Below are positions 18,795 to 54,202 of a stretch of 64,000 nt of DNA, piece after piece. This stretch comes from Candidatus Symbiobacter mobilis CR. Lineage in GTDB: Bacteria; Pseudomonadota; Gammaproteobacteria; Burkholderiales; Burkholderiaceae_C. Position 1 is the stretch's first letter. Every line of letters begins with the position of its first letter. The translations under genes were made by a program, and so were the position numbers. Location of the stretch: contig NC_022576.1 in NCBI RefSeq assembly GCF_000477435.1, positions 2,927,841-2,991,840 on the forward strand, read 5' to 3'. The notes under the pieces are model-generated. The model made no database searches and was not told where the DNA came from. It was given only the letters and a program-made list of their open reading frames with translations.

Positions 18795-18807
18795 TAAGGC
18801 TTAGACC

Positions 18808-21800: not shown

Positions 21801-23289
21801 CGGGGGGCATACTGACGATGTCAATCATGTGGCCTTTTCTGGAGAGCGCGCTGAAGGTGGCTTCTGGTTGGCGAGTGCGTCAAGTGATGGCAACGTTGGC
21901 CTGTGGTCGGTGCCAGCCACAGGCGATGTTGGCGGCCCGATGATGCGACTCGAGGGGCATATCAACGTTGTTGGGAACCTCGCCTTTTCCGGGGAACGTG
22001 CTGAGGGTGGCTACTGGCTGGCGAGTGCCGATCTACACAACGTCTGCCTGTGGTCGGTCGAAGGCTCAGGCGGTGTCAGCGACTTGAAGATTCAGTTCGA
22101 CGGGCATACCGACACTGTTAATCATGTGGCCTTTTCCGGGGAACGTGCTGAGGGTGGCTACTGGCTGGCGAGTGCGTCAAAGGATCACAACGTCTGCCTG
22201 TGGTCGGTCGAAGGCTCAGGCGGTGTCAGCGGCCAGATGATTCAGCTCGAGGGGCATAGCGACCGGGTCCACTATGTGGCCTTCTCTGGGAAGCGTACCG
22301 AGGGTGGCTTCTGGCTGGCGAGTGCCTGTTTGGATGGCAACGTCGGCCTGTGGTCGGTGCCAGCCACAGGCGATGTTGGCGGCTCGATGATCCTGCTCAA
22401 GAGGAATCCTGAAAGTGTCATACATGTGGCCTTTTCTGGAGAGCGCGCTGAAGGTGGCTTCTGGTTGGCGAGTGCCTCTTCGTATGGCAACGCCGGCCTG
22501 TGGTCGGTGGCGCCCGAAGTCGGTGTCAGCGGCCCGATGATTCCGCTCAAAGGGCATCATACTGAAGGTGCCAAACATGTGGCCTTCTCTGAGAATCGTA
22601 CCGAGGGTGGCTTCTGGCTGGCGAGTGCGTCAAGGGATGGCAACGTCCGCCTGTGGTCGGTGCCAGCCACAGGCGATGTTGGCGGCCTGATGATGCTGCT
22701 CAAGGGGCATACTGAAAGTGTCAAACATGTAGCCTTTTCCGGGGTGCGCGCTGACAATGGCTTCTGGTTGGCGAGTGCGTCAAGTGATGACAACGTCGGC
22801 CTGTGGTCGGTGGCGCCCGAAGTCGGTGTCAGCGGCCCGATGATTCCGCTCAAAGGGCATACTAAAGGTGTCCAACATGTGGCCTTCTCTGGGAAGCGTA
22901 CCGATGGTGGCTTCTGGTTGGCGAGTGCGTCTGATGATCACAGTGTAGGGCTTTGGTCGGTGGCACCCGAAGTCGGTGTCCGTGATCCTATGAGTCGGCT
23001 CCAGGGGCATACTGAAAGTGTCAATCGTGTAGCCTTTTGCGGGGAGCGCGCTAACGGCAATCCAGTGTTGGTATCGGCCAGCGACAGGGAGATCATCTTC
23101 TGGCGCATTCCGGACGGTCTGCTACTGGCACGAGTTTCCTTCAGCGCCGACGCAATACAAATCATGAGTCTGCGCTGGAGCACCGACCAGCAAATGCTGC
23201 TTGTTGCGGGCGTGCTGGGTACCCGGGCGGTCAACCTGAGCCTGATCGTTCCTGAGTGGCTGTTGTCGGGAGAGCACAGCGCCCCTTGA
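18808..23289 (+). CDS. Zinc-ribbon STAND-like NTPase with WD40 propeller
   Basis: A 1493-aa protein. Residues 1-30 hold a treble-clef or zinc-ribbon pattern (Cys5, Cys8, Cys22, Cys25). Residues about 85-480 look like a NACHT/STAND-type P-loop NTPase: VIIAADAIWGKTHFALDW with a degenerate Walker A and AILLLDGVDEIWG as Walker B. A helical region follows to about 685. The rest is about 15 WD40 repeats, most nearly identical. STAND proteins act as switches in which the repeat domain senses a ligand and the NTPase oligomerises. No effector domain is obvious, so the paired DAC-like protein may be the partner. Confidence 0.82.
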   Translation: MTVKCNFCGQQFDRIDSPDNLCSVCLAGELIAQTHDDQVDQILDGKFTAPPTDYGKGLVLVLPQVLQDSAGRYAGDCYGRDWLRTKISDFVRHNVQGYVIIAADAIWGKTHFALDWYRNTLKRDSDKPLASSELPPLSGWAFIRKEAVPIYSNPVDILLWLEAQTRNQRDMPYSDQRPAPGQATIGDFKSFNADGPKKLAEHFYNFLVELGGHAQTKGDQAILLLDGVDEIWGSSGTHPSSLFPGALPLMLPKGVFIVLLSRPGKHLRWKSGDPQSPCLTLDLASAFKPGAADDGQLDLLRQGNQKDLESYLEGRLEKMRNDGLVKLDEWQKLNRDLLDAAQGYLIVLITLLANDINLADRLEAWRNNPKSLPRGPKELFAGVLIRILEHLRVEANRNGLDDTCCNCQVITSLGLAASLRQPMTMKGLGLLLFPNKKPVAQSALSCPIALSCPMTADACKAALDYCAEVFVGQHAGDHGVVLAFWHPLMRDIAIAAFRALWSHQDINVANIVAALGQDATTTLQPLHRWLAMCSQRFWKGGHVDEDKRAACAYALAWGPWHGLHSGNQEVSGQSINTLQDPVYLQTVYSRFGNQAGRILDPTVAEALGHPDNTHPQLLGWVQRALVHHDRALAEGELAVASVLYNDLCGSDAIDAQWRQTVHELALAAGPVRWAPGSPPQMLKFKFQEYVTSIAFSPDARWLAVATGKDIVLLEAQGDAFRETTRLQGHSNWVNYVVFSGKRTEGGFWLASASSDGVGLWSVPATGDVGGPMILLKGHTGRVNHVAFSGERADGGFWLASASSDGNVGLWSVPATGGVSGPMIPLEGHTDGVNHVAFSEKRVDNGFWLASSSGNLNLGMWTGTSGDPNVGLWSVPATGGVSDPMIQLEGHTGWVNHVAFSEKRADNSFWLASASDDGNVGLWSVPATDDGVSGPMIQLEGRRSRHMAFSGKRAEGGFWLASASGFWLASASSDDGFDDKVGLWSVAATDGVSGQMILLGGHTDDVNHVAFSGERAEGGFWLASASSDGNVGLWSVPATGDVGGPMMRLEGHINVVGNLAFSGERAEGGYWLASADLHNVCLWSVEGSGGVSDLKIQFDGHTDTVNHVAFSGERAEGGYWLASASKDHNVCLWSVEGSGGVSGQMIQLEGHSDRVHYVAFSGKRTEGGFWLASACLDGNVGLWSVPATGDVGGSMILLKRNPESVIHVAFSGERAEGGFWLASASSYGNAGLWSVAPEVGVSGPMIPLKGHHTEGAKHVAFSENRTEGGFWLASASRDGNVRLWSVPATGDVGGLMMLLKGHTESVKHVAFSGVRADNGFWLASASSDDNVGLWSVAPEVGVSGPMIPLKGHTKGVQHVAFSGKRTDGGFWLASASDDHSVGLWSVAPEVGVRDPMSRLQGHTESVNRVAFCGERANGNPVLVSASDREIIFWRIPDGLLLARVSFSADAIQIMSLRWSTDQQMLLVAGVLGTRAVNLSLIVPEWLLSGEHSAP
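20995..23040 (+). repeat. Homogenised WD40 coding repeats
   Basis: About 13 tandem units of roughly 140-155 bp encode GH(T/S)..VNHVAFSG(E/K)R.(E/D)GGFWLASASSDGNVGLWSV-type blades. Units share long identical stretches, with differences clustered after GH and after WSV. Local slippage is visible: FWLASAS is doubled near 21680, and NVGLW-type sequence is partly doubled near 21370-21420. This points to recent amplification and gene conversion. Confidence 0.85.
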
Positions 23290-26021: not shown

Positions 26022-26459
26022 TTATGCCACGCAAAGGCGCAGTTTCAAGTCACTCAGAACCCTGGCCAATCCCTCATCTTTGTCGCTGTAAGGAAAATCA
26101 AAGCCGTCAACCTTCACCCACTGAGACTCTTGGCCCGGATGGACATAGGCCTCAAAGTCATCGACTAGCAGCGTCTCATGAACCAGGGCGTCTTGAACGA
26201 ATCTCAGGTCTTTGGTCTTTCCCTCCCACGAAACAAATTCGACAGTGGCAAACCAGGGTGGGGCGACGCGCTCTTCAACCAACAGGTGTGCGATTTGCCG
26301 AAATCGGTCTTCCCTGACGGCAGTGAATATGAGGATACGAGAAAAGAGTGCTCTGCACTCCTCAAGGAACGCAAACAAACCAGGTCGTGGAATTTGGCTC
26401 ATCGAATTCGAAATGAGAGTTCCCTCTAGATCAAGGGTAAGGACACTTGGTCGTGGCAT
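26022..26459 (-). CDS. HAD phosphatase of the FCP1/NIF type
   Basis: A 145-aa protein with HAD motif I as LTLDLEGTLIS (the second Asp of DxD is replaced by Glu), then IPRPGLFAFLEECR and ILIFTAVREDRF (motif II Thr), and a late VDDFEAYVHPGQ (motif IV Asp pair). The RPG..FL....F.....FTA layout is that of NLI-interacting-factor/FCP1-like phosphatases. It is divergent from the RNA polymerase gene. FCP1 dephosphorylates RNA polymerase II in eukaryotes; a link to this polymerase is speculation. The ATG at 26459 is the likely start, with a TTG four codons upstream as alternative. Confidence 0.7.
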   Translation of the reverse strand: MPRPSVLTLDLEGTLISNSMSQIPRPGLFAFLEECRALFSRILIFTAVREDRFRQIAHLLVEERVAPPWFATVEFVSWEGKTKDLRFVQDALVHETLLVDDFEAYVHPGQESQWVKVDGFDFPYSDKDEGLARVLSDLKLRLCVA

Positions 26460-26941
26460 GTTGATTGGCAACCTTTAATCAAAAACGTTCCGAACCTCAA
26501 ATTTCGTGATCCGTGCGATGAGGCAATTTCCAGGACTATTTCCGCCTTTAAAGTGGTAAATAGCTGACCTGCCATCTAAGCCCGTGTTTGCATCGGCCAA
26601 TGCAGTCATCTCGACTCAGCCGTCTTTTTTGACATGGGGTTCCTCCTGTCCCAGGTGCCCCGATCATGTGATGGATCGCTTTGCTTTCAATCCCTAAAAT
26701 GGGGAAAGTACTACTAATAGTTAGTTGCCGAGTCTTGAGTGTATGAAATGACCCTGCGCCGGGGGAAATGGTGGTGGCGCAGCCGTTCGCCGGCTTGACG
26801 CCTGGCTGCGAACGCTTGAATGTCGTAAATTGATCTCAAAAAACCGGTCAAACTCAACCGCGCAAAGAATAACAATGGTACGATAATTTAGTCGTTTTCC
26901 GAGGCTTTTCTTTTGAGTTTTCGGTACGTCAAGGATATTCT
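26460..26941. other. Intergenic region upstream of the RNA polymerase operon
   Basis: No gene is supported. It must contain the promoter of the RNA polymerase operon and of the divergent HAD gene. A weak relative of the island motif (TAGTTAGTTGC, 8 of 11 positions) lies at about 26716-26726 on the plus strand. AAGGA lies 6 nt before the GTG start at 26942. Confidence 0.5.
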
Positions 26942-29900
26942 GTGAATACCATCTCCGATACTTCAAAAACGGTCGAACTCGCCTTTGTCGTCTGCAAATC
27001 CGTCGATATGGCGGATGCGCCCAGTTACTGGCTTCAAGGAAATGTGCATCTGCTCGGCCCCAATTTTCTGGGCGGACATGTCGATCCGGGAGAGTCGCCG
27101 CGCGATGCCGCGATCCGCGAATTGATCGAAGAGCTTGGCGATGCGGAACTAGGTGCGAAATGGGGTCTGTCCACAGATTCTGCGCCTGGATTTTCCGTGG
27201 ATCGTTTGGCGCTCATCAAGTTCATCAAACCTTTGCATGGGGACGACCCTATATGCTTGCCGTTCTATTCGAGGCGCGCGAGTATGGAGCGTGTCGGTCT
27301 ATGCCATTTCTACGAACTTGATCTGTCCAGCACGCCAGAAGGTAATGCAATCGAGGAGCGACTGCACTGGCTGGCAGGGCGTACTCATCCGGATGATCCA
27401 TCCCTGTTCGCTTCCCAGCGCTTGACCGGCGCAGAGCTTCTTGCCGAAGCCTGGCGCAATCCAGTCAATCCCTTCATACGTGCGTATGTCAAGCACATCA
27501 ACCGGTCCATGACCAACGTACCGGTATTCAAGCTCGATCTGGCTGATCTGGAGTCACAGCTCGAGGCGCGATTGCGCACGGCGATGCCGCTGGAGAACAG
27601 TTGCATATCGGCGACTTTGGTGCTGCCCAAGACGGCGGACATTCAGGACGCCTTCGCCTATGGCGACTCCTTGACGATGGGGCTGGAACTACGCTGGTCG
27701 GGAAGTGACGATGTGTTCCGGGCCCGCATGCCCTTCGCACATGAAGGCGTATTCGTACTGGGCGAGGCAGCCCGTGATGCCGGACATAGCGTGGCGTACA
27801 GCCGTTGGCATCCCGCGCTGGTTGCACAACCTGGCTATTGGGCGGTACGCGAATTTCACGCCGGTGGCGAAACCGCGCGCGTACTGAAAGTCGCGCTGGA
27901 GAACGGTCGAGTCATCAATATGAGGCTTGACGAAGTCCGCAAAGGCGCAATCAAGACCAGATCGGACCAATTCCGTTACGCAACTCCAGTGAGACAGGGG
28001 AATTTGCCCCGTTCACTGATGGCGAGCTTGCCCGGCCCGGGGGAACTGGTTTCTGAGTCAAGCTTGCGCGAGCGCCTTGAAGAGGCGCTCAAAGTACTTG
28101 CCACAAATGAGGGCATAGACTGGCTGGACGACCAGAATTTGCGCTATCAGCGTTTGTATACCTATTCCGCTCATATTTTGGCAGTGTTTGGTTGGTTTCT
28201 GCGCCAGATCGGAGGCAGCAAGCGCGACCGTGAATCATTCTGGAGGGCCATGCTCAGCGGAGCGGATGCATTTGCCGACCAGGCTTTTCCTTTGAAACAC
28301 TTGCGCAAGACTGGACGACTACACAGTTTTCGCCCGATTAATGCACTTGATGCGATTTCCAGGCTCACGTCGTTCACAAAATACCCCTACAGAAGTGAAA
28401 TACTAGAACGCTTACCGGCCGTATTTCGACAGATTCACCCGAGTTATCGCGGTGTCGTCTGTCCATTCGAGAGCCCTGAATCAAAGCTGGTGGGTCTGAC
28501 ACTTAATTTGGCCCGTGGGGTCAATGTCGATGCTCAGGGCGTATTCAAACCGGCCGTGTCGAATGATACTTCGCTACAGGTGGGTTATTCCGCCAGTCTG
28601 GTGCCATTCCTGTGCCATAACGATGCGCCACGGACCATGATGGGCGCAAAAAACATGAAGCAGGCGGTTCGCATCCGTGACCCCCGCCCCCCCATGATCG
28701 ACACTCATGGTGACGCTGCCATCTTTAGACTAGTTCGCCCGCTTCAGGAATTAGGCGTGCTGTCAGCGGATGTGCCGGCGGCGCCCGGCCGGGATCTTCT
28801 GGTCGCTTACATGCCATATGACGGCCTGAATTTCGAAGATGGCATTGTCGCGAATCAGCGATTGCGCGATGAAGAATCCATGAACTGGATCGAGGACGAA
28901 CACATCGAATATTTCATCGAGCCGGACTGGGAGTTGTGTCCAGGTAGTTTTGGCGAGGATTCGTGGGAACGCAGTCAAGCGGCGATGTTCGACCACAGAG
29001 GGCTGCGTCGGTTGGGGTCGTTGATTCAGAGCTGGCCGGACGGGGACCGGGTCGCACATGTCCAGCACCGGTATAGCAAAAATTTGAGTCACATTAAATT
29101 GTTTCTCGCAAGCGAGGCGGAGTTGATCGGCCTGGAGTTTCTCCCTGCACCCGCGCAGGGCTATTGCAGTGCCTTGCACCTGACCCTGCGTCGTTACCGT
29201 CCGCTTGCGGTCGGCGACAAACTGATGGGACGACATGGCAACAAGGGGGTCATCGCCACCTTTATTGATCCGGAACGAATGCCAAGATATCCTGCTGATT
29301 CTCGGTTACCCGACAGCATCCGCGGACGCTCGGTGGATTTGCTGCTCAATCCCAATGGTGTGATTTCCCGTATGAACATGGGTCAACTGATCGAAACCCA
29401 GGCGACGCTGGCGATGACGTTGGGCGGCCCCAAGTTCGAAGGTCAGCAGCAATTCGATGCCCTGTCACGCCAGGCCCTGGCTGGATTTTTTGAAGCCAAT
29501 ACGCACGGCTTTGACCGGTATGGCGGCATTCGCTTGGAACTGCCGGATCGGGGCGTGTCCACCACCCTGCCTGTGACCACGGGATTTCAGTATTTCCTTA
29601 GATTGAAGCAATCACCCATGGATAAGGCCCAGGTCAGGGCGGTGCCTCGCAGTGTTGCAGGCTATTCGAGGCTGACCGGGCAACCGCTAGGTGGACGCCG
29701 CCGGGGAGGTGGTCAGCGACTGGGTGAGATGGAGGTATGGGCACTGGCCGCGCATGGCGCGGGCCGTTTTCTAAGCAGCGCACTGACCGTGAAGAGTGAT
29801 TATTCACGCCTGCAGGGGAACAACGATGAGCCATCAACCTACCGGTCGATCCAGGATTTTCTCAAAGCGCGCGGGCTGGAAATGGCGACCGAGGCTGGGG

Positions 29901-32554
29901 CAGCCGTGGTGGGAGTTGTACATGCCGAGGAAAATGCGCAACGCTTGCTTACTAGTTCTGGCCTGGCCCAGGTTGTGGTGAGAATTCACGCACGTTGTGA
30001 AACTTGTACGAAAACCATCGAGACCGAAGCCACCCCCAAGCAGCGTGATGGCCTCAAGGTAGACCTCGCGGGATGGTTCTCTCGTCATGGCCTCGTTCTC
30101 ACCGACCAGACCATGGCAACTCTCAATGCAGAGCTGGGATCACTGTCTCCACCCTTCGACTGGAAAACCACATTCGTCGTATCAGAACATGGAGTTGGCC
30201 TCTTAATTGGCGCTTTGCACGTGCGGATGGTGGGTAAGATGGCCTATCAAGGCGACGTCGAGGTAGCGGGCAAAGCTCAAACATTCAAGGGACGCCTCGA
30301 CGCAACGCGTATCACAGTGAGCAAGTTGATAACGTCCTTGCTAACCTGCCCTGAGCATCCTGAAGTGCTCCTGTCAGTAGATACTGGCGAGGCGTACACC
30401 CTCACGCAACCGTTACCAGGCGGGCTTTTCGATTCGGCTCTGTTCGGAGATGATGGTCGGCAGTTCGCAGGCTTGCGCTACCCGGTGTCAATAGATGCGG
30501 ATCACACACTGGTCTGGCAAGTTCTGCCGGTTCTACCCGCACGCTATCGCAGTGTGTCCAACGACTTAGGCGGCAGGAGCAACGAGTGCGACAGCTTGAC
30601 CAAGATCTACCAGCAGATGTTCGACACCGCGAGAGACGTTGACAAACTGTTGTCAAACTTGACCCAATCTTCGTCAATCGACAAAAAAGCGGCGCTTGAG
30701 CAAGTAAACCAGAAACTGCGCCAGATCGCCAATAACAAAGCCGAACTCTACAATCAGTTGGACAATCGAATCAAGGGCAAATTTGGTTTGTTGCGCCGTT
30801 TCGGCCTGGGTCGTCGCGTCAATCTATCGGGGCGTTTTGTCATCGTGCCTGGCCCCAAACTGGCGTGGGATCAATGCGGTCTTCCGGTTGGCGCGCTGGC
30901 CATGCTGCTGGCGGACAAGATCGCACTATGGGATGCACTAGGCGACCTTAAGGGCATAAAGGTCGAGGTTCTCGACAGCCAGTTCTGGTTGAAGTTGGGA
31001 GAACGCCGTAAGCTGATTGATGTTTCTGGTGAATTCATTGCCTCGATTGTGCATGTGCTGGCAGCTTTCCTGGCGGAGCATCCTTCGATTCGGGTTGTAC
31101 TAAATCGCGCGCCGAGTTTGCACAAGTACAGTGTTATGGCCCTGCGGCCGTTGCTTCTGCCAGTTGAAGATGGCTTTGTACTGCGCATCAATCCATTGGT
31201 GTGCGCCGGCTTTGGCGCTGATTTCGACGGCGACGAAATGTCTGTTCATATGCCGTTAACCGAAGCGGAGCACCTCGAAGCCGCCCAATTGATGAGCCCG
31301 GTGGCCGAACGAAACCTGCTTTCTGTAGCGACGGGCAAGCCACTAGCGGGTTTTAGCCAGGACATGGTGCTTGGGTGCTATTTGGCGAGCCTTAGTGAAT
31401 TTGACCGTGCGCGATTTATCGACATTTTCCCGGACCCGTGTTGTCAAAAGATATTGCGAGATTACCCTTGTTGGACCAAGGCGGTCAGCCAGGAATTGCT
31501 GGGTCATCTGTGCAAAGCACATGCGGACCAGGCGCCGGAATTGATTTCACGCTGGGTGAGTGCCTGCTTTGCTAAAGCAAGTGAGTCGGGCAGTTCCTTC
31601 GGTTATCTCGATCTGCTGTCTATCTCGACCCCGGTTCCGGCAGGCGAGGATGCTCCCGGTAATGGCGAACTGTCACGACGAGTTGGCCGAATCGTCGAGT
31701 CAATCTATCCATTGACTGAAGGTGATCCGCCTGCAGGCGCTGGTTTTGCCGCACTGGCCAACAGTGGCGCGCGCGGAGGCCCTGAACAGACACGTCAGAT
31801 GTTGGTGATGCGCGGAATGCTCGATCCTGGAGCCATTGGCTTTACAAGCCAGGATCGAACCTGTGACTTCACCTTACGGACAAACCTCCTGCTTGGCATG
31901 ACCTCGGACGACGCATTCCAGGGGGCATTCAATGGCCGGTCATCGATGATCGACAAGAAGCTCGGCACACCCGTGGCCGGTGCGCTGACCCGTCGGCTGG
32001 TGTTGGCGGCATGGACTTGGCTGGTCGAGAAAGGTCACTGTGGCGTGGATGTTCCAGCCGGGTCGGTCCTGGCCTGTCATTGGCTCGAGCGCAAGCGGAT
32101 TTGCACGCATTGTTATGGGACTGTATTTGGCGTATCTGACCTGTCCGGGTATGCCTGTGGCCTGATAGCGGCACAATCATTCGGTGAGCGAGGTACCCAG
32201 TTGTCCATGCAAAGTTTTCATACCGGGGAGAAGGCCATCTCATTGGCGGTGCTCGAGCAATGGATGAGTCGCATGGGTGAGCACCATCGATATGAAAGCT
32301 TCAAAGAGGGGATAGCTCGCTTCGGTGTGTACGATGCTCTTGACGAGCGGCATCTGAAACTGATATGGCTGGCAATGCGCGGCGATTGCACTGACCTGGA
32401 TATGGCGTTGTTCGGTAGGGGCCAGACTTTCATCGAAACTGCCACGCATGCCCAAGAGGACAGACGCCAGTTAATTTCCACTTCCCCATTCTTGCGCCTG
32501 CTGTTCAATCAGGCACCCGTTTGGACGGATCTGGGGACCGGGGAGCCATCATGA
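26942..32554 (+). CDS. Single-chain RNA polymerase (beta + beta') with Nudix domain
   Basis: An 1870-aa protein, GTG start. Residues about 8-150 are a Nudix hydrolase domain with the full box GHVDPGESPRDAAIRELIEE-LG. Residues about 370-980 match the beta catalytic core: VVCPFESPES (about 505), RTMMGAKNMKQAV (564), LLVAYMPYDGLNFEDG (617), KLMGRHGNKGVI (762), LLNPNGVISRMNMGQ (802) and GGQRLGEMEVWAL (923). Residues about 1130-1870 match beta-prime: VLPVLPARYRS, RRVNLSGRFVIVPGP, VLNRAPSLHKYSVMAL, FGADFDGDEMSVHMPLT with the catalytic triad Asp1427/1429/1431, trigger loop NSGARGGPEQTRQMLVMRG (1607) and QSFGERGTQLSMQSFHTG (1745). Lineage-specific insertions and the beta-prime zinc-finger pattern are missing. 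It heads a five-gene operon. Confidence 0.93.
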   Translation: MNTISDTSKTVELAFVVCKSVDMADAPSYWLQGNVHLLGPNFLGGHVDPGESPRDAAIRELIEELGDAELGAKWGLSTDSAPGFSVDRLALIKFIKPLHGDDPICLPFYSRRASMERVGLCHFYELDLSSTPEGNAIEERLHWLAGRTHPDDPSLFASQRLTGAELLAEAWRNPVNPFIRAYVKHINRSMTNVPVFKLDLADLESQLEARLRTAMPLENSCISATLVLPKTADIQDAFAYGDSLTMGLELRWSGSDDVFRARMPFAHEGVFVLGEAARDAGHSVAYSRWHPALVAQPGYWAVREFHAGGETARVLKVALENGRVINMRLDEVRKGAIKTRSDQFRYATPVRQGNLPRSLMASLPGPGELVSESSLRERLEEALKVLATNEGIDWLDDQNLRYQRLYTYSAHILAVFGWFLRQIGGSKRDRESFWRAMLSGADAFADQAFPLKHLRKTGRLHSFRPINALDAISRLTSFTKYPYRSEILERLPAVFRQIHPSYRGVVCPFESPESKLVGLTLNLARGVNVDAQGVFKPAVSNDTSLQVGYSASLVPFLCHNDAPRTMMGAKNMKQAVRIRDPRPPMIDTHGDAAIFRLVRPLQELGVLSADVPAAPGRDLLVAYMPYDGLNFEDGIVANQRLRDEESMNWIEDEHIEYFIEPDWELCPGSFGEDSWERSQAAMFDHRGLRRLGSLIQSWPDGDRVAHVQHRYSKNLSHIKLFLASEAELIGLEFLPAPAQGYCSALHLTLRRYRPLAVGDKLMGRHGNKGVIATFIDPERMPRYPADSRLPDSIRGRSVDLLLNPNGVISRMNMGQLIETQATLAMTLGGPKFEGQQQFDALSRQALAGFFEANTHGFDRYGGIRLELPDRGVSTTLPVTTGFQYFLRLKQSPMDKAQVRAVPRSVAGYSRLTGQPLGGRRRGGGQRLGEMEVWALAAHGAGRFLSSALTVKSDYSRLQGNNDEPSTYRSIQDFLKARGLEMATEAGAAVVGVVHAEENAQRLLTSSGLAQVVVRIHARCETCTKTIETEATPKQRDGLKVDLAGWFSRHGLVLTDQTMATLNAELGSLSPPFDWKTTFVVSEHGVGLLIGALHVRMVGKMAYQGDVEVAGKAQTFKGRLDATRITVSKLITSLLTCPEHPEVLLSVDTGEAYTLTQPLPGGLFDSALFGDDGRQFAGLRYPVSIDADHTLVWQVLPVLPARYRSVSNDLGGRSNECDSLTKIYQQMFDTARDVDKLLSNLTQSSSIDKKAALEQVNQKLRQIANNKAELYNQLDNRIKGKFGLLRRFGLGRRVNLSGRFVIVPGPKLAWDQCGLPVGALAMLLADKIALWDALGDLKGIKVEVLDSQFWLKLGERRKLIDVSGEFIASIVHVLAAFLAEHPSIRVVLNRAPSLHKYSVMALRPLLLPVEDGFVLRINPLVCAGFGADFDGDEMSVHMPLTEAEHLEAAQLMSPVAERNLLSVATGKPLAGFSQDMVLGCYLASLSEFDRARFIDIFPDPCCQKILRDYPCWTKAVSQELLGHLCKAHADQAPELISRWVSACFAKASESGSSFGYLDLLSISTPVPAGEDAPGNGELSRRVGRIVESIYPLTEGDPPAGAGFAALANSGARGGPEQTRQMLVMRGMLDPGAIGFTSQDRTCDFTLRTNLLLGMTSDDAFQGAFNGRSSMIDKKLGTPVAGALTRRLVLAAWTWLVEKGHCGVDVPAGSVLACHWLERKRICTHCYGTVFGVSDLSGYACGLIAAQSFGERGTQLSMQSFHTGEKAISLAVLEQWMSRMGEHHRYESFKEGIARFGVYDALDERHLKLIWLAMRGDCTDLDMALFGRGQTFIETATHAQEDRRQLISTSPFLRLLFNQAPVWTDLGTGEPS

Positions 32555-33516
32555 AACACAGGATTCGCATCGACACATCGCCGCAGACCGTGCAACGGTC
32601 AACTCCTGTGGCACATCGCAAGTTACATGAGAAGGCAGGGCAGGCATTGAGGCAAAAACAGTCAAACGTCGCTGAACTGGCGCTTGGGCAACTCGAACAG
32701 CGTGCCTTGTTCGATCCAGTGGGTCAGACCGAGTCTTCAGATTCGGCGATCGATGGGCTCGAACTGCTCAATGATGAAATCGAGGATGACCCTGAGGAAT
32801 TCCTTGAGCCAGCAGATTTGTCGGGAGATCTTCCGATTGATGCGGACGTCGCTGGCGAACTATTGACCCATGAGATATCCGGTCAACCCGTGGTCGACCT
32901 CGGCAAAGCGGATCGACTGGATATCTTCCAGCGTGAAGGATGCTGGCTTTGCCGCTACCGCGAGCCAGTGATGACACTGGCTGGACTGGATGCGCAAGAT
33001 GCGAGCTACGTGCATCGCCGCTTCCGGTTCTTTCATGCCTTGGCGGGCTGGCTGACTGAAAAGGGCCAAGCGTTTCTGGCGACACCTGGTCCGCACACGT
33101 GGGCGAGTCTTCAAGGGAATCGGTATCTTGATTTCGCCACGCTTGCCCCTTGTGTTACCCATAAAGGCATGTTGGACCACATCCGGCAATATTCCGGGTT
33201 CGAACTGGGTGTATCCCTTTTTTCAAGACTGTTGAAGGACCGCAAGATCTGGCTTGCGTGGCGCGGAAGAACTGCCACCCCGGTCAACATCTTGTTCAGC
33301 CGCGAATATCGGTTAGCGTGGGCCGTACAAGGACTCAAGCATTGGCAGGGCAATGAGATATTTGACTGGACTGTCGCGGAACATGCCCAAGCGGCGATCA
33401 AGGGCCGAAGCGCCGAAAATGACAATATGCACGATGCCTTCACGCGTATGGCCAAAGCTGCCGACGTTCCCAATGAAGAATTACGCACCTGCATGCCCAC
33501 CAATTCGACCAGGTGA
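32551..33516 (+). CDS. Unknown protein coupled to the RNA polymerase
   Basis: A 321-aa protein whose ATG overlaps the polymerase stop (ATGA), with GGGGAG upstream, so the two are translationally coupled. The N-terminus is Gln-rich and basic, then strongly acidic (DDEIEDDPEEFLEPADL-type, residues about 75-95). The middle (RRFRFFHALAGWLTEKGQAF through LDFATLAPCVTHKGMLDHIR) has the spacing of a helix-turn-helix and recalls, very remotely, the core-binding and HTH part of sigma-54 (Q.FL...P, HEST-like HKGM). The layout of a Gln-rich start, acidic region and HTH, plus its place between a polymerase and an NtrC-like ATPase, makes an initiation factor plausible but unproven. Confidence 0.6.
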   Translation: MKHRIRIDTSPQTVQRSTPVAHRKLHEKAGQALRQKQSNVAELALGQLEQRALFDPVGQTESSDSAIDGLELLNDEIEDDPEEFLEPADLSGDLPIDADVAGELLTHEISGQPVVDLGKADRLDIFQREGCWLCRYREPVMTLAGLDAQDASYVHRRFRFFHALAGWLTEKGQAFLATPGPHTWASLQGNRYLDFATLAPCVTHKGMLDHIRQYSGFELGVSLFSRLLKDRKIWLAWRGRTATPVNILFSREYRLAWAVQGLKHWQGNEIFDWTVAEHAQAAIKGRSAENDNMHDAFTRMAKAADVPNEELRTCMPTNSTR

Positions 33517-34958
33517 TTGACATCAAAAAAAACAGCAAGCTTACATACCTCCTGCCCGAAGCCGAATGGCCTGGGCAGCCTGAATTGTTTCAGTCAGCCA
33601 CCTCGCTGGCCAATTCAGAGGGAATCGGCTTCGTTTACCTGGCTTCTGGACAAGGTCTGCGTGATCTGATGCGCACATGCCCCCCACACTTCATCGCGCG
33701 CCATCCGGAGGGCAGGGTCATTGTTCTCAGCGCTGCTCGAAACGGCCGACCTAGAAACCCAGAGGACGGCTTTGCAAACCGTGACTACGCCATCGAAGAA
33801 CAGGCGCGTGAATGGATGCATCTGGATCTTCCAGAGGAAGCCCACGTCGGGTGGAATATCTGGCTGCGAGAACAAGTGGCCGAATGGCTGGACATACCAA
33901 AAGAGCCTTCGGACGAAGTTCAGGCCATCGGCAGTCTTGTTAAGCTCACAGATCCAAGTAATGTTGCGGCGCTCTTCCTGACTGGGAGATCGCCAAGCAT
34001 AAAAAAGGTGGTTGATGCGCTCGACCGGATCAAGCGTGCTTATCGTTTGCAAATTGGTGGCAAGGTAGGTGATCGACGGGATAAAGTTCTGAGCCCACTT
34101 GACGCTCTTCTGGCCGCAGACAAACCAAATGAAGAATTGTATCGGGCGGTTGCTGGCGCACTTGAGCATGTCGTCGAAGGTGTCGCGATTCCGCGGCGCT
34201 TCAGCGACGTTAAACCAGACGCCTTGCCGCGCGTATTGATATTGGGGCCGTCAGGGAGTGGCAAGAGCGTTGTTGTTAATTATCTAGCCAGACGAACTTC
34301 TCCACAGGGGTCGGAAATAACTCATCGCCCACAGATGCGTGTCCCCCTGCCTTCATTCAGCAAAAACGAACAACTGATGGAGTTTGAACTGTTCGGCTAT
34401 ATGCGTGGTTCATATACAGACGCACGTCCCAATGGTAGCCCAGGTGTCTTGATGAGCCATCTCGGGGGTATCGTCTTTCTAGACGAAATCGGTGAAGCAA
34501 CGCCGGCATTGCAAGCCAAACTCCTTGCCTTTTTGGACGACTACCGTGTGACTCCGCGCGGCTGGTATGGTAAGGGAATCTACTGCCCACTCATGCTGGT
34601 TGCGGCGACGAATCGGCCCATTGATCTGTGGGCAGCGCAGTATGAACAGGATGAAAACGCCGGCCACGGCCGTTTCCGTCACGACCTGTACCAACGGTTT
34701 ACCCACATTATCCGGCTGCCTGGTCTCGATGAACGCAAGGAAGATTTGCCCGAACTTGTGGATGGTTTGCTACAACTGGATTGGATTAATGCGGGTCAAC
34801 GAATTACTGGTATCACTCACAGCGCCTTGAAAGCATTAAGTGATATCGATTTTTCTCAAGGAAATTTCAGGGCACTTCAAAATAAGCTTCAACAGGCTTG
34901 TCAACGTGCGTCATGCAGACGTTCAAAGATTATACAGGTATTTGATTTGGTCTTTTAG
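33513..34958 (+). CDS. NtrC-like (sigma-54 activator type) AAA+ ATPase
   Basis: A 481-aa protein, GTG start overlapping the previous stop. Residues about 235-440 are a Sigma54_activat AAA+ domain: Walker A GPSGSGKS, ELFGYMRGSYTDARP where ELFG...GAFTGA is expected, Walker B GIVFLDEIGEA, sensor 1 VAATNRPIDLW, and RFRHDLYQRFTHIIRLPGLDER containing the arginine fingers. The sigma-contacting GAFTGA loop is altered to GSYTDA. The N-terminal 230 residues are not a known receiver, GAF or PAS domain. The C-terminal region is short. It could open promoters for the dedicated polymerase. Confidence 0.83.
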   Translation: MIDIKKNSKLTYLLPEAEWPGQPELFQSATSLANSEGIGFVYLASGQGLRDLMRTCPPHFIARHPEGRVIVLSAARNGRPRNPEDGFANRDYAIEEQAREWMHLDLPEEAHVGWNIWLREQVAEWLDIPKEPSDEVQAIGSLVKLTDPSNVAALFLTGRSPSIKKVVDALDRIKRAYRLQIGGKVGDRRDKVLSPLDALLAADKPNEELYRAVAGALEHVVEGVAIPRRFSDVKPDALPRVLILGPSGSGKSVVVNYLARRTSPQGSEITHRPQMRVPLPSFSKNEQLMEFELFGYMRGSYTDARPNGSPGVLMSHLGGIVFLDEIGEATPALQAKLLAFLDDYRVTPRGWYGKGIYCPLMLVAATNRPIDLWAAQYEQDENAGHGRFRHDLYQRFTHIIRLPGLDERKEDLPELVDGLLQLDWINAGQRITGITHSALKALSDIDFSQGNFRALQNKLQQACQRASCRRSKIIQVFDLVF

Positions 34959-34993: not shown

Positions 34994-37900
34994 ATGCAAC
35001 AAATAATCAAGGCAACGCCAATCATATATCTGCTCACTGGATATGATCATCAAAAGCTCGAAGATATAAAGAATGAGTACGTCAAATGGATGGAGGAGGA
35101 AGGATTTCAAGTGAAACTGATAATCCCTCCAGTCAGACCAAAACCAAGAAAGGAGTTCGATTTGGAAGAACTGCTGCCTCTTGATCAAATAAGACATGAT
35201 CGAGAGAGAGTTGCAATGTTCATCTACGACATTAATCAATGGGAGAAAAATGACAAAGTACTTTCACTCGAGATTCAACCATCAAATCCTGCGCATTCCA
35301 TGTTGCGTGCAGCCATGATTAGCTCGTTTAAAGGCATCCCTTTTCTGAATATCAACAATCAGCCTAAATCACTGGCAGGTAAGTGGGGGGTCGAAGCTCA
35401 TAGCTCGATTATAGAAGCACACAAATTTAATAAACCAAAAAATAGACTTAACATAAACCAGAAGTTAAGAAAACCAACCATGTTGCATGCAGCCATGGTT
35501 AACTTGTTTAAATGCATTCCTTTTCTGAGTGTAAAAACTCAATCAAATTCGCTGGCAGGTAAGTGGGGGTGCGAAGCGCGCAGTTTGATTATAGAAGCAC
35601 GAAAATTTAATGAATTAAAAAATAGACTGAACATAAATAAGAAGCTGAAAAAATCAAAACAAAGTGATGAATTGAATAATAATTGCATTATTGAGGAAAT
35701 TGAATATTATTATCGTAATAAATTCTTCAATATGATCTTCGAGTTGAACATTGGATATTATACAACTCCATATCCCAATCAATTCAATTCAAAGTTTAAT
35801 GCCCCGGCAGCCAATAAAAAGCTCATTAACATTGCCATGGGAAAAAATATGTCAGCGCGTCTGCTGGAGTGTGTTATTGCTCATACAGTTCCTTCTGGTG
35901 ACATTGTCGGGGTTCGTTGCATCAGTGAGGGTTTGTCTGATGCACTCGTGTTCGTTGTGTATCCACAGGGTAAGGCCGGCATACTCATTAAGCTCGCACC
36001 CTGGCTGGAGTCATTATGCGAGTTTGAGGGAATGCAGTTCGTCATTGGGCCGCGTCTCAAAACCTTTGTCGCATCGCTCGTAAACACAGGTGTTGGTATA
36101 GGGCCGGTATTCTACAGGGATGAGAAGGGCACTGCATGGGGCTCGATTGCGTATAATTTAGTGGGCTCGCCGGATCAGAGCACCAAGTTGGAGTCCCTGA
36201 AGACACTCATTAACAATACCTTGGGTGCCAGTGATCATGGCAAAGCGGACTTTCTTAGAGCTGGCGTAAGTAAGACGCTCAAGGAAGTGATTGTCCCCAT
36301 ACACGGCGCAAAGGAGAGTTTCACCTATGCAACAGATACGCTGTGGGGATGGCTTGGCACTTCACTGCCACCAGTGTTTACCGCGACGCTGGCCGAACCT
36401 ACAAAAGACCCTAACAACACTATCGGATCTTTCAGGACAAAGGGGTATAAGCGCGATGCGGCATTTCGTTTGGCCGAATGTGAATGGAATAGCAAATGGA
36501 ATGGTGAAGGGTCGCCCTGGATTGTGAAGCTGAAAGGCTTCATCTTGCTTGAGTTCGATATCAAGGATGGTGTTCACTCAGTAATCGTGCGGCATCCGGA
36601 CCTGGGTTTTAGGATTGAGTGCATCGATACCAATGCTGTGCTCAGTTCCGCAGAATGGCCCCCCAAGTACATGAAGTATGGCTTTCCTGTAGAGCTATGT
36701 GTGAGTCCATTGCCAAACAATCGGAATTATTCTCTCTATGAAGAGGTTTTCGACTCGGCACAAAAAAACAAGCAGACTCCGAGGACTCCTCTGGATATGT
36801 TTTTTTATCGCTCTGCGTGCCAGAATATACTTCCGCCCCTGTCTTACACCTACTGTGCCCGGATGTCACCTATACATGGCGACCTCAATCTTTCTAACAT
36901 CCTGTTTACCGACGGTATTGAACTGGGTTGGCTTATCGATTTTGATAGTAGTTGTATAAAAGGACTGACCGCCTTCGATTTCGCCAAGCTGGAAGTAGAA
37001 CTGCTGAGTCATTTTCTGATACCTCGGTTGATCGATCTTTCTAGCCGTTACCCAAACCTTTGTGTTCTACGCAGAAAGAATAAATCATTCCCAAATGATT
37101 CAACCCTGTTGGCAAGTGTACTTAGTACACTCGATAGCCTGGATGTGAATCAGGACATCGTCGATCAGTGGAAGTTGATGTTAAACGACAAACAACTCTT
37201 GGGTAACGATCTCCATAATTCCAGTCTTGATCCTATCTGGGTTTTGCTGCGACTACTCGCAGTATTTAGGCGGGCTGCCATGAGCGCTTTGATCCACACT
37301 AAAGAGCCGCATGATCCTCATAGCAACCATGCGCCAAGCGATTTGGCATTGGCGATCTCGGCGTGTGCTTTCTCCGCGATTAAACATGCTGTAAAGCGTT
37401 CACGTAGAGATATTGCCGAAGACCTGGCGATAGTTTCCGAATGGTACGTTCGTCAGGCTATACCAGTTTTCAGTCCAAAAGAGGAATCCGGCAAAATTCC
37501 TGAAACCCTAGATGCTACTATGGAACCGCCTGAAACCCGTAAGACTTTGGAAACGTCTAGTCTAGAGCAGTTGGTGCTTATGGCTGGCCCTAAAGCTCGT
37601 TTGGATATTGACAAATCACTGCTATCTTTGTCAAAAAAGAAGTTGTCAGAGATTATTAATGAAATCGCGGCGACTAAAAAACCAAAGGTGGAATGGGATG
37701 TTAAAGCCTGGGATTTCGCTTCCACAGGATGCGTGGCGAACATCAGTCCCATTGTCGGTTATCTTTGGTTGATGACTCGTAATGACCTGCTTTCAAAGGG
37801 AGCAGAACATAAGGATAAAATCTGTGTGCCCAAGATCTCGTCACGCGGAGCTGGGGGTGGGACTGTCGATACCCTTGAAGCAGGTGGCTATCCTTTCTCT

Positions 37901-38995
37901 GGCGATTTCGAAAGAATAAAAAAGATTATTAAGAATACTAGCGGTGTATTCTGTAAACAAGAGGACGCTTTGGTGCGGGTTGATAAAGCGGCTATGGCGC
38001 GCCGAAAAGTACGAAACCTTATGAAGGATCCTAAGCTGATGCTGGCCTCGGTTCTCGCAAAGAAGCTTGTAATGGGCTGCCAACATGCCGTAATAGATGT
38101 CAAGCTGGGGCGTGATACCAAAGTAATACCGCTATCATTAAGTAGCAAAGAAGTCGGCATCGTCAGTGCGGACGCTGAGAGACTTATTTCGATTTTACCC
38201 AATGAAGCTGCGATCACGGCTGCGAAAGCCCTGCTAACCGAGGCGGGTCTAAGTTTTATGTCGAGTGACTCTACGGGTCATTTTCATGAGATCAAGACCA
38301 ACGATGAAACGAGTGGTACAAAACTTGCCAACATGGAGACGCTGCGCCTTGTTTTTACCAGCGCCGATGTTCCACAATGCCAAGCAATCGGGCGAAACCT
38401 CATTCTATTGATGCTATTTCGTGAATTTGAATTACAGAGTGAAGAAAACGAAAGCAACAAGCCTTTTAATTGGGCGGAGTCTTATCGGGAGTTTTATCTC
38501 AAAGTGATTCCGGCTTCGCTAGATATCGTTGTATCTGAAGAAAATGAAAAACAGGCCAATGAAAGACTGCGTGTGGCATGGCAAAGACTCTTGACGCAAT
38601 TGCCAAATCTAGCAAAAAAGAATGAATATGACGTATTCAAGCTGCAAGAACCGTTCAATACATTGAACGCAATAATCAACAATAAGGAGTGCAGTGTTCA
38701 GTCCTTGAATGGCCCGCTGGAAGCTAAAACATACCCAATTCCTGGCCAAGGACAAACAAAAGTGAACTTCATCGACGCTTATGAATTAGACGATTGGTTC
38801 GATGAGTTATGCAAAGGGGCATCAGGTGAGGATAGAGAAGTGGGTTTTTGGATGCATGTATTGCCAGGTGGTCAATACAAATTCGGAACACCATTCATCA
38901 CCGTCTTCTATAACAAAGATCGGATAAACGCGTCCCGAATCGACCAACGTATGGCCAGATTCTTGAGTCGCGATAACGGTTACATAGAGTTATAG
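34994..38995 (+). CDS. APH-like kinase fused to pyrimidine-phosphorylase-like domain
   Basis: A 1333-aa multidomain protein, clearly more AT-rich than its neighbours. Residues about 103-220 contain a tandem 60-residue duplication (ML.AAM...FK.IPFL then SLAGKWG.EA.S.IIEA.KFN). Around 620-660, SPIHGDLNLSNILF and LIDFDSS supply the catalytic loop (His628, Asp630, Asn633) and metal-binding Asp649 of APH-type kinases. From about 905 to 1160 the sequence follows thymidine/AMP phosphorylases: FASTGCVANISP for the KHSTGG phosphate loop, KISSRGAGGGTVDTLEAG, LVRVDKAAMARRKVR, and LASVLAKKLVMGCQHAVIDVK. Several substrate residues are replaced. It follows the NtrC-like gene by 35 nt. Confidence 0.78.
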   Translation: MQQIIKATPIIYLLTGYDHQKLEDIKNEYVKWMEEEGFQVKLIIPPVRPKPRKEFDLEELLPLDQIRHDRERVAMFIYDINQWEKNDKVLSLEIQPSNPAHSMLRAAMISSFKGIPFLNINNQPKSLAGKWGVEAHSSIIEAHKFNKPKNRLNINQKLRKPTMLHAAMVNLFKCIPFLSVKTQSNSLAGKWGCEARSLIIEARKFNELKNRLNINKKLKKSKQSDELNNNCIIEEIEYYYRNKFFNMIFELNIGYYTTPYPNQFNSKFNAPAANKKLINIAMGKNMSARLLECVIAHTVPSGDIVGVRCISEGLSDALVFVVYPQGKAGILIKLAPWLESLCEFEGMQFVIGPRLKTFVASLVNTGVGIGPVFYRDEKGTAWGSIAYNLVGSPDQSTKLESLKTLINNTLGASDHGKADFLRAGVSKTLKEVIVPIHGAKESFTYATDTLWGWLGTSLPPVFTATLAEPTKDPNNTIGSFRTKGYKRDAAFRLAECEWNSKWNGEGSPWIVKLKGFILLEFDIKDGVHSVIVRHPDLGFRIECIDTNAVLSSAEWPPKYMKYGFPVELCVSPLPNNRNYSLYEEVFDSAQKNKQTPRTPLDMFFYRSACQNILPPLSYTYCARMSPIHGDLNLSNILFTDGIELGWLIDFDSSCIKGLTAFDFAKLEVELLSHFLIPRLIDLSSRYPNLCVLRRKNKSFPNDSTLLASVLSTLDSLDVNQDIVDQWKLMLNDKQLLGNDLHNSSLDPIWVLLRLLAVFRRAAMSALIHTKEPHDPHSNHAPSDLALAISACAFSAIKHAVKRSRRDIAEDLAIVSEWYVRQAIPVFSPKEESGKIPETLDATMEPPETRKTLETSSLEQLVLMAGPKARLDIDKSLLSLSKKKLSEIINEIAATKKPKVEWDVKAWDFASTGCVANISPIVGYLWLMTRNDLLSKGAEHKDKICVPKISSRGAGGGTVDTLEAGGYPFSGDFERIKKIIKNTSGVFCKQEDALVRVDKAAMARRKVRNLMKDPKLMLASVLAKKLVMGCQHAVIDVKLGRDTKVIPLSLSSKEVGIVSADAERLISILPNEAAITAAKALLTEAGLSFMSSDSTGHFHEIKTNDETSGTKLANMETLRLVFTSADVPQCQAIGRNLILLMLFREFELQSEENESNKPFNWAESYREFYLKVIPASLDIVVSEENEKQANERLRVAWQRLLTQLPNLAKKNEYDVFKLQEPFNTLNAIINNKECSVQSLNGPLEAKTYPIPGQGQTKVNFIDAYELDDWFDELCKGASGEDREVGFWMHVLPGGQYKFGTPFITVFYNKDRINASRIDQRMARFLSRDNGYIEL

Positions 38996-39023: not shown

Positions 39024-40127
39024 ATGAAGACCCTGAGTTGGAACATACAATGGGCAAAAGGCATGGATGGGCGCGTTCAGCCTGAACGCATTGCTCAAGA
39101 GATCGAGCGTATTAACCCCGATATCGTCGCGCTTCAGGAGGTTTGCCGTAACTATCCGACCAACACGGGAGAAAGTCCCGCAGATCAGCCGGAATGGTTT
39201 GCTCGGCGATTTTCGCGGGCTGGCTACCAAGTCGTTTTCGGCGCAGCAGTGGATACCGTCGATGACGCCGGAGAACCCATGCAATTCGGTAATCTTATCC
39301 TGACGCGATACCCTGTCCAGCGCATACTGAAACATGTCCTCCCACACCCTGCAGATCCTGACAATCCGGGTTCGGCACGGTCAGCGCTCGAGTTGATGCT
39401 CTCCACGCCGAATGGACCTTTGCGTTTCACCACGACACACCTTTCATATCACTCCGTCCGGCAGCGCACTGCCCAAATCGACTATTTGCGCCATCGTCAT
39501 GCGGAAGCGAGCCTCTGGTTCCATTTCCCGCCCTGCAAGCCCGACACTTCCCATACCCCGTTACGTACCACACCGGAGTCCTTACGGGCCATACTTTGCG
39601 GCGATTTCAATACCGATCCAGGTGATGTTGCGCTACAAATTTTAGCGAAAGCGTTTGATCTGGGTGAGTTTAAAGACCTCGTAGAGGCGAACAAGAACCC
39701 CACGAAAGTTGTTCCAGCCTTTCTCGACGCTTGGGAGGTCGCTCATCCGGGTCAACCACATGCTCCAACCCTGAGCGTTCACGACCCGCAACGATCTCCC
39801 ATCTGCTTCGACTACTTCTACGTCAGTGAAGATTTGGTTCCTGCAATTGAATCGTTTGAGGTTTTCAAAGACACTATGGCATCGGATCATCAGCCATGCC
39901 TAGTCACCTTTCGCGGGGGCGGCCAGCCTCGATGCCTACCAGCCGGTAGCGCACCTCGCCTGGCCTTTGAGCTTCATGAAAACGGGACCGACGCCGTCCG
40001 AGCGCCAACGGACCAAGGTCGAGTTGCGGATGAACCAGGGTTTGGCCAGATCGTCCTGGGTGAGGCAAGTGGGTTGAGCAACGCTGAACATCGGCCCAGC
40101 AGCAAGACGGGAAGTTCGCATGTTTGA
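39024..40127 (+). CDS. Endonuclease/exonuclease/phosphatase-family enzyme
   Basis: A 367-aa protein. EEP fold motifs are intact: LSWNIQW at the start, DIVALQEV (metal-binding Glu), THLSYHS (His), LCGDFNTDPGD (Asp and Asn) and ASDHQPCLVTF (final Asp-His pair). Such enzymes cut DNA, RNA or phosphate mono- and diesters, including cyclic dinucleotide products. The domain should end near 39920; the last 65 or so residues look like read-through over an antisense DNA-binding-protein remnant and may not be native. It follows the 1333-aa gene by 28 nt and closes the polymerase operon. Confidence 0.85.
   Translation: MKTLSWNIQWAKGMDGRVQPERIAQEIERINPDIVALQEVCRNYPTNTGESPADQPEWFARRFSRAGYQVVFGAAVDTVDDAGEPMQFGNLILTRYPVQRILKHVLPHPADPDNPGSARSALELMLSTPNGPLRFTTTHLSYHSVRQRTAQIDYLRHRHAEASLWFHFPPCKPDTSHTPLRTTPESLRAILCGDFNTDPGDVALQILAKAFDLGEFKDLVEANKNPTKVVPAFLDAWEVAHPGQPHAPTLSVHDPQRSPICFDYFYVSEDLVPAIESFEVFKDTMASDHQPCLVTFRGGGQPRCLPAGSAPRLAFELHENGTDAVRAPTDQGRVADEPGFGQIVLGEASGLSNAEHRPSSKTGSSHV
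39915..40091 (-). pseudogene. AlpA/excisionase-like HTH remnant
   Basis: The minus strand reads CLTQDDLAKPWFIRNSTLVR followed by WRSDGVGPVFMKL, then after a small indel GEVRYRL, the pattern of MerR/AlpA-type helix-turn-helix proteins. A frameshift near 39970 and loss of the C-terminus make it non-functional. It lies opposite the tail of the EEP gene and probably comes from another mobile element. Confidence 0.5.
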
Positions 40128-53814: not shown

Positions 53815-54202
53815 TGGTGGAGCTGGCGGGAATCGAACCCGCGTCCGCGAGCCTTTGCCGAGCAGGTCTACATGTGTAGTGGTCTGATTTGGATCTTGCG
53901 CCAGGGAACGCGCAGCCACACGCTTTCCCCATTGCCAGCACCCTGTTTTCTTGCGCCACACCAAGGTGCCCGGTGCAGTGCCAGCCAATGTGAATGCCCC
54001 CGCAGCCGGGAGCCACGAACCGGTTGGTCAGTGGCCCCTTGCCCAGCCCATTGGCGAGCTGTTGCAGGGCTCGCTAGCGATTAAGCAGCGAGTGCGAAAC
54101 GTTCGTCGTTTGCAGTTGGTTTTTTGAATCCGTTTTACGAGGTAATTCGACTCGACATGCACCACAACGATCCCGAACCCACGTCGAAACCAGTGCAGCC
54201 CC
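53815..54202 (-). ncRNA. ssrA: tmRNA (SsrA)
   Basis: Rescues stalled ribosomes and tags nascent proteins for degradation. The 5' end GGGGCTGCACTGGTTTCGAC and the 3' end with T-arm GGTTCGATTCCC and encoded CCA are clear; the length is 388 nt. The tag reading frame at 54113-54081 encodes ANDERFALAA and a stop, a beta-proteobacterial form. The 3' end is a frequent attachment site for integrases, but no integrase is seen here. Confidence 0.96.

Follow-up and report, generated by a model that had tools for sequence, protein, structure and literature searches.

A single-chain Nudix-beta-beta' RNA polymerase homologue and its likely AAA+ partner on a probable mobile island of Candidatus Symbiobacter mobilis

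Results and discussion

Three overlapping genes encode the polymerase homologue, a middle protein and an AAA+ ATPase

The window analysed here is a stretch of 64,000 nucleotides from Candidatus Symbiobacter mobilis CR (contig NC_022576.1, positions 2,927,841 to 2,991,840), and its main feature is a gene that encodes, in one chain, an N-terminal Nudix domain followed by a beta-like and a beta'-like RNA polymerase part. The open reading frame (ORF) comprises 1870 codons and a stop, begins with GTG preceded by AAGGA at a spacing of 6 bases, and is uninterrupted by stops. It is the first of three overlapping genes in a row, which are given below in window coordinates with lengths in amino acids (aa).

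26942..32554, plus strand: single-chain Nudix-beta-beta' RNA polymerase homologue, 1870 aa (ORF, Pfam, homologues, profile alignment)
26942..27496, plus strand: Nudix domain, aa 1-185 (Pfam NUDIX, PF00293, at aa 41-78, E 9.1e-8; family Nudix profile, E 4e-61; confident model)
27509..29896, plus strand: beta-like part, aa 190-985, including GDKLMGRHGNKG (aa 758-769, 29213-29248)
29897..32263, plus strand: beta'-like part, aa 986-1774 (alignment and model)
32551..33516, plus strand: 321-aa protein of no recognised family, ATGA overlap with the polymerase stop
33513..34958, plus strand: sigma54-activator-type AAA+ ATPase, 481 aa (Pfam Sigma54_activat, E 9.8e-25), GTGA overlap with the middle gene

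An initial annotation, made from the sequence alone, had described a single 1870-aa chain with a Nudix box, beta and beta' motifs, DFDGD and a trigger loop, a description borne out by the ORF, Pfam and the profile alignment. The Pfam domains follow each other in the order NUDIX, Rpb2_3, Rpb2_6, Rpb2_7, Rpb1_1, Rpb1_2, Rpb1_3, Rpb1_4 and Rpb1_5; six lie above the curated cut-offs (NUDIX, Rpb2_3, Rpb2_6 at 2.4e-36, Rpb2_7, Rpb1_2 at 1.7e-23, and Rpb1_5), and the matches to Rpb1_1, Rpb1_3 and Rpb1_4 fall short of them. In a profile-profile alignment of 20 polymerase family members against housekeeping beta and beta' profiles (26 loci chosen), aa 218-985 aligned with E. coli beta 293-1341 (E 3.5e-69) and aa 982-1774 with E. 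coli beta' 14-950 (E 5.5e-69). The family profile matched 207 distinct sequences of solved structures, the best 60 of which are beta or beta' chains (E values to 5.1e-83). Structure prediction, which the initial annotation had proposed as a check alongside the profile search, gave confident AlphaFold models (predicted local distance difference test scores of 90 and 87) that match solved beta and beta' chains, with bacterial and eukaryotic second-largest-subunit chains (Pol II, Pol III) tied as matches; the structure-match listing hardly covers aa 1-189 and carries no information on the Nudix fold. The chain had also been estimated to be about 1000 residues shorter than the two subunits combined, and the measured deficit against E. 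coli beta and beta' (1342 + 1407 aa) agrees, at 879 residues in all or about 1060 excluding the Nudix part.

Catalytic motifs are retained and peripheral regions reduced

Three motifs (DxDGD, the beta lysine motif and the trigger-loop motif) were counted across the best 120 homologues. The first reads DFDGD here (aa 1427-1431, 31220-31234), aligns to the E. coli motif, and is present as DxDGD in 120 of 120. The beta lysine motif, GDKLMGRHGNKG in this protein, is complete as GDKxxxRHGNKG in 111 and present as R(H/Y)GNKG in 119, and its lysines K760 and K768 are invariant across the 20 aligned family rows. The trigger-loop motif GERGTQLSMQSFHTG, starting at aa 1748 (32183), was found in 116. Retention of the catalytic motifs extends over listed homologues at 29-50% identity. 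The zinc site 2 cysteines C1700, C1712, C1721 and C1724 are kept and align with E. coli cysteines, presumably C814, C888, C895 and C898. A modelled helix (aa 1655-1690) occupies the place of the bridge helix, and a clamp coiled coil is modelled at aa 1218-1278, in a sequence unlike the sigma-binding clamp helices of E. coli. The length of the coiled coil could be read off in 22 of 118 and 5 of 26 sequences, and no use is made of it.

The polymerase is reduced in the stretch corresponding to E. coli beta 938-1041, in part of the flap, and over most of beta' past the trigger loop; at the sigma-binding flap tip, a counterpart of E. coli beta residues 885-904 is absent from the profile alignment. 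Counted by sequence pattern, with one or more false hits included (a value of 1112), the stretch around the flap measures 110-157 residues in 101 family members versus at least 158 in 22 housekeeping sequences. The profile alignment shows no conservation of the presumed contact residues in the rifampicin region of E. coli beta (window 28200-28600, aa about 420-560), and the enzyme may therefore be insensitive to rifampicin in vitro.

The polymerase belongs to a family of single-chain proteins

A protein search scored 7990 candidates and returned 996 at E <= 0.001, a count of matches as distinct from confirmed members. As many as 116 of the best 120 are 1500-2050 aa long, which together with the 996 matches shows that the polymerase ORF is no chance reading frame. 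Named sources include Ectothiorhodospiraceae bacterium BW-2, Methylobacter psychrophilus, Thiorhodovibrio frisius, Acidobacteria, Verrucomicrobia and Kiritimatiellae, Pseudomonadota being among the phyla represented. On sequence similarity, the polymerase is thus a member of a family of single-chain proteins across several phyla, and the impression of a one-off protein left by the initial annotation has to be corrected; most members lack the Nudix domain, which only 21 of the best 120 carry.

Occurrence among related genomes is sparse. Four overlapping sets of genomes were searched, each including the own one and with at most two to four candidates scored per genome: 100 relatives, and 369, 399 and 398 genomes from the class, the order and the phylum, respectively. 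The polymerase was found in the own genome and in no other. A contig scan of genomes gave at least 588 stretches with 582 relatives, mostly housekeeping rpoBC, of which 80 were kept; one of these 80 (L008, 1-4321, filed under an uncultured Petrotoga metagenome-assembled genome) holds a 1352-aa ORF that is a single-chain relative cut by the contig end. None of 50,697 phage and 72,556 plasmid records had a place covering 80% of the polymerase query, and a plasmid candidate for family membership (H22) turned out to be housekeeping rpoB.

We found no account of a Nudix-RNA polymerase fusion or of the single-chain family in a literature search that reached few subscription papers. An older description is possible, for example by Iyer and Aravind in 2012. 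The family is not described in the available portions of PMC7159879, PMC5512222, PMC12839542, PMC7481178 and PMC5467207.

Phylogeny separates the family from housekeeping RNA polymerase

From 60 sequences aligned over 1442 columns, a tree was built by a quick method. It covers 28 chosen family members, 19 housekeeping sequences and, from viruses, 8 single-chain and 5 two-gene sequences; archaeal, eukaryotic and fused housekeeping rows were left out, and 34 rows deviate in composition. The 28 family rows form one side of a branch with a Shimodaira-Hasegawa-like approximate likelihood ratio test (SH-aLRT) value of 100, as do the housekeeping, the viral single-chain and the viral two-gene sets, and branch lengths within the family exceed those within the housekeeping set. 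The own genome also carries rpoB, rpoC and rpoN, and forcing the family together with the own and E. coli rpoBC was rejected by the approximately unbiased (AU) test (log-likelihood 149 lower, p 1.6e-6). As judged from these sequence comparisons, the family is separate from housekeeping RNA polymerase, and the separate branch and the AU test rule out a recent fused and decayed copy of the host rpoBC, the outcome of a phylogeny that the initial annotation had named as fatal to its proposal. A tree joining the family with the 8 viral single-chain rows was as good as the free tree (AU test, p 0.515) and the two are not joined in the quick tree; a common single-chain ancestor with the viral rows is therefore possible.

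Comparison with known polymerases

One close frame of reference is bacterial beta and beta', with which the polymerase is homologous over aa 218-1774 in the same order, sharing DFDGD, the two beta lysines, zinc site 2, the bridge helix and the trigger loop, but from which it differs in being one chain with a Nudix domain at the front, a shorter flap stretch and beta' C-terminus, and a likely AAA partner. Housekeeping rpoB and rpoC are fused in some bacteria such as Helicobacter, where the enzymes are full-length; the family described here likewise consists of one chain but is reduced, and lies apart from the 19 housekeeping rows, none of which is fused.

Single-chain polymerases also occur on viral contigs. 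Eight IMG/VR contigs (L084, L088, L090, L106, L107, L109, L110 and L112) encode single-chain beta-beta' polymerases of 1985-3192 aa, measured stop to stop, some of which have long insertions, placed between the two subunit parts or past DxDGD; on other IMG/VR contigs the chain stops shortly past DxDGD and the remaining beta' lies in a separate ORF. These viral proteins resemble the family in carrying both subunits in the same order in one chain, and a common branch is not rejected, but in the quick tree they branch separately (SH-aLRT 100). No exact match to the trigger-loop motif in its commonest family form turned up in the viral contigs, and in the 31 viral loci Nudix was not matched and AAA was matched once, weakly (7e-5), which leaves no clear AAA partner.

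In the publications consulted, the closest enzymes are YonO and phage polymerases, whether fused or separate. YonO of phage SPbeta, a protein of about 100 kDa, is RNA polymerase-like in its two barrels only and has no detectable trigger loop, according to PMC5467207. It too is a single-chain relative of multisubunit RNA polymerase, whereas the polymerase described here retains most core domains, and homology beyond the two barrels together with the presence of the trigger loop rules out a YonO-like enzyme. The crAss-like phage RNA polymerase, in which beta and beta' are fused, is described in PMC7481178 as unmatched by the RNA polymerase profiles used there; the polymerase described here is fused likewise but gives strong matches to RNA polymerase profiles. 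No place in the 50,697 phage records covered 80% of it, and a known phage gene was rejected as well. The same source describes the mReC Caudovirales RNA polymerase, with virus-encoded beta and beta' subunits, which is a deeply branching non-host enzyme as here, but the polymerase described here is chromosomal and single-chain.

The Nudix domain appears to be old in one branch of the family

The Nudix box GX5EX7REUXEEXG lies at aa 45-67 (27074-27142), with D replacing the hydrophobic residue at the last place, and the nearest solved chains to the domain are weak and mixed (best E 0.011). With a family Nudix profile built from the first 185 residues of 14 members, the domain was recognised in the 21 of the best 120 homologues mentioned above (19 of them under 1e-20), and 18 of these 21 carriers keep RExxEE. 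Ten sampled RExxEE rows and P0028, whose domain is eroded, fall in one 15-row branch (SH-aLRT 91, not starred) that also includes rows without a Nudix domain; the remote P0116, outside the tree sample, carries an RExxEE Nudix domain (4e-28). From the tree and the distribution of profile matches, the Nudix domain appears to be old in one branch, mostly with its catalytic residues intact, and dispensable for the family. Three proteins (P0016, P0028 and P0040) match the Nudix profile but have lost RExxEE, a hint that the domain may act non-catalytically in part of the family.

The AAA+ ATPase is a likely partner of the polymerase

The search with the AAA protein returned 18 orthologues (own included, as in all counts of 18) with E values to 2.0e-45, set off by a gap from the next matches, generic NtrC proteins that begin at 1.8e-26. 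Eight of the 18 share their exact longest-contig size with a listed RNA polymerase homologue (2991840, the own, 231765, 4074140, 24832, 13714, 5417120, 56199 and 31014 bases), versus 0 of the 101 generic matches for which a contig size is given, the polymerase side of this matching being the best 120 of the 996 homologues. In BW-2 the locus tags are 00915 for the polymerase and 00925 for the AAA protein. Pairwise distances over the eight polymerase and AAA pairs are correlated (r 0.94), a value reached by 4 of 10000 permutations. Three of the eight paired polymerases (P0045, P0095 and P0107) lack Nudix, P0095 and P0107 lying outside the Nudix-bearing branch and P0045 at its base, so that the AAA association looks like a wider trait than the Nudix domain. 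The initial annotation of the polymerase makes no mention of the ATPase. Among 60 genus genomes, an AAA partner at E <= 1e-40 was found in the own genome only. A plasmid search with the AAA protein matched 2172 records, none with 80% covered; all ten on the list are sigma54-type regulators or lack annotation.

The ATPase shares with the sigma54 activators RtcR and NtrC the AAA+ domain, the Walker motifs and a GAFTGA-like loop, but differs from them in its relaxed loop, in lacking a recognised helix-turn-helix, and in its likely link to a single-chain RNA polymerase. The loop reads GSYTDA in the own protein, is exactly GAFTGA in 1 of the 18 orthologues, and has Tyr for Phe in 15. No helix-turn-helix was found by hmmscan in the own protein, and PF02954, frequent among the generic NtrC-type matches of the same search, is absent from the precomputed domains of the 18 orthologues. 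Sigma54 activators without a helix-turn-helix or other DNA-binding domain are known. The window holds about as many sigma54-like sites as chance predicts (44 versus 47.4 expected), and the 440 bases upstream of the polymerase gene hold none, with one minimal GG-N10-GC; a scan for sigma70 sites was at or below chance level.

For the 321-aa middle protein, one homologue was found besides itself (P0127, 58%), whose longest contig of 5255 bases has the same size as that of the AAA orthologue P0129. It had no Pfam or PHROG match, and its one PDB match is valueless (E 0.38).

The genes lie on a likely mobile island beside the tmRNA gene

The polymerase likely sits on a mobile island, as the initial annotation had supposed, given its presence in the own genome alone across the four genome sets and a right edge at the gene for transfer-messenger RNA (tmRNA). 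The neighbouring features are as follows.

10851-14956, minus strand: consecutive genes for a ThiF-like adenylyltransferase, two proteins unmatched in NCBIfam and a ClpA/ClpB-like ATPase
17655-23289: protein with DACNV and a weak DAC match, then a 1493-aa WD40 protein (domain matches)
26022-26471, minus strand: NLI-interacting-factor-like (FCP1-type) phosphatase (PF03031, 1.2e-7), divergent from and adjoining the polymerase gene
34994..38995, plus strand: TCAD9/kinase-like and thymidine-phosphorylase-like protein, 1333 aa (best PDB E 1.9e-9 for the C-terminal part)
39024..40127, plus strand: endonuclease/exonuclease/phosphatase-family protein (domain match), of doubtful place in the system
45161-53117, minus strand: type I restriction-like cluster that includes proteins resembling MAD2 and MAD3, both scoring under the curated cut-offs
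53155-53691: Schlafen AlbA_2 protein (domain match)
53815..54202, minus strand: tmRNA gene, right edge of the island (sequence match)

The island carries several transposase genes; an AAA protein and insertion sequence elements also lie to the left of the operon, and a Fic protein and transposase-like pieces below cut-off lie between the operon and tmRNA. Core genes (phosphoglycolate-phosphatase-like, MnmE, YidC) follow beyond tmRNA. The left island edge was not found in a comparison of four stretches, the tmRNA region being matched in 57 of 60 genus genomes, and in these four stretches a transposase gene is the sole match to the own sequence left of tmRNA. The window holds no second copy of the tmRNA end, to which two matches with 2 mismatches exist elsewhere in the genome. 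Among those window proteins that were scanned, a subset of the ORFs, none was recognised as the product of a capsid or replication gene. The proportion of guanine and cytosine is about 0.55 in the operon, about 0.44 in the TCAD9 gene and 0.60-0.645 beyond tmRNA, and the TCAD9 gene is therefore probably a separate module or arrival. It contains an internal tandem duplication of 180 bases (35298-35657), and a plasmid search with its protein matched 11 records, the listed rows aligning over the thymidine-phosphorylase part alone.

Proposed function and alternative explanations

Cells transcribe with beta and beta' together with initiation factors. We posit that the single-chain homologue is likely to be an active DNA-dependent RNA polymerase, as predicted from its retained motifs, and that control of this polymerase by the AAA+ ATPase is a fairly probable prediction; for both together we estimate a probability of roughly 0.55. 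The fused chain would form the two-barrel active site alone or with few host subunits, and the AAA motor, two genes downstream, would act on the polymerase or on the 321-aa middle protein to drive the start of transcription; under this proposal, the polymerase would be silent until the motor is triggered. Once activated, it may transcribe a small gene set of its own, perhaps its own island, with the Nudix domain hydrolysing a nucleotide or a triphosphate or nicotinamide adenine dinucleotide 5' end beside the polymerase; cleaning of the nucleotide pool and capping or decapping of the RNA, as raised in the initial annotation, are possible functions of the domain. What is new here is the build of this two-barrel RNA polymerase and, probably, its AAA partner. 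A role in defence or island life is plausible given the restriction- and conflict-type neighbours, defence in particular being a tentative suggestion. The most far-reaching version, an undescribed sigma-free and island-borne machine in which a deeply separate one-chain RNA polymerase has its promoters opened by a dedicated AAA+ motor, with Nudix choosing or trimming nucleotides in one branch and the machine perhaps being switched on when a phage seizes the host polymerase, is rather unlikely to hold as a whole.

If the proposal is true, the single chain would make it testable with how few parts a full-featured RNA polymerase can work, and could serve as a handy laboratory enzyme. Whether promoter opening by AAA+ proteins, known from sigma54, can be coupled to a polymerase without sigma54 would become testable too, and a polymerase-borne Nudix domain would directly tie RNA synthesis to the control of nucleotides or of the 5' ends of RNA.

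Several observations weigh against an active polymerase under AAA control. The part of beta' after the trigger-loop motif is much reduced (107-347 aa in 115 homologues versus 247-527 in 21 housekeeping sequences), and the trigger-loop Arg position (aa 1757 here, presumably E. coli R933) is Gln in 91 of 102 readable homologues, so that kinetics may differ. A conserved initiation factor could not be demonstrated, the middle gene having a single detectable homologue besides itself. Linkage of AAA and polymerase genes elsewhere is likely on the strength of equal contig sizes, an indirect proof; 10 of the 18 AAA orthologues have no size-matched polymerase among the best 120, 5 of these 10 being on contigs below 6 kb, and the Walker A pattern was missed in 1 of the 18 (P0136).

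Of the competing explanations, we regard as unlikely that the polymerase descends from an ancestor shared with viral beta-beta' chains and serves the genes of an integrated selfish element, unused by the bacterium. The same subunit order in the viral chains of L084, L088 and L090, the joint clade that the AU test did not reject, and an island with several transposase genes beside tmRNA would all fit such an origin; the trigger-loop form without exact match in viral contigs, the phage and plasmid records devoid of places at 80% coverage, the viral loci without Nudix and with a single weak AAA match, and the lack of recognised capsid or replication genes among the proteins scanned argue against it. 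It is quite unlikely that the AAA protein is an ordinary soluble activator by which the host sigma54 polymerase expresses the operon, the single-chain polymerase starting otherwise: its domain belongs to the Sigma54_activat family, the host has rpoN, and there are activators free of a DNA-binding domain, but the GAFTGA loop is rarely exact, sigma54-like sites do not exceed chance, and the ATPase co-varies with the polymerase.

A non-ordinary polymerase, copying RNA templates or making a signal or primer RNA in defence with Nudix as the off-switch, would suit the DACNV/DAC, WD40, restriction and TCAD9 neighbours, and two-barrel enzymes include RNA-dependent polymerases. We consider it highly unlikely, as the clamp, zinc site 2, bridge helix and trigger loop of the DNA-dependent enzyme are kept and the neighbours, compared at the own locus alone, differ in base composition. 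The least probable explanation by far is a decayed or inactive copy of the host rpoBC, to which the shorter length and sparse occurrence might point, but which is contradicted by the tree and the AU test and by the catalytic motifs kept among divergent homologues.
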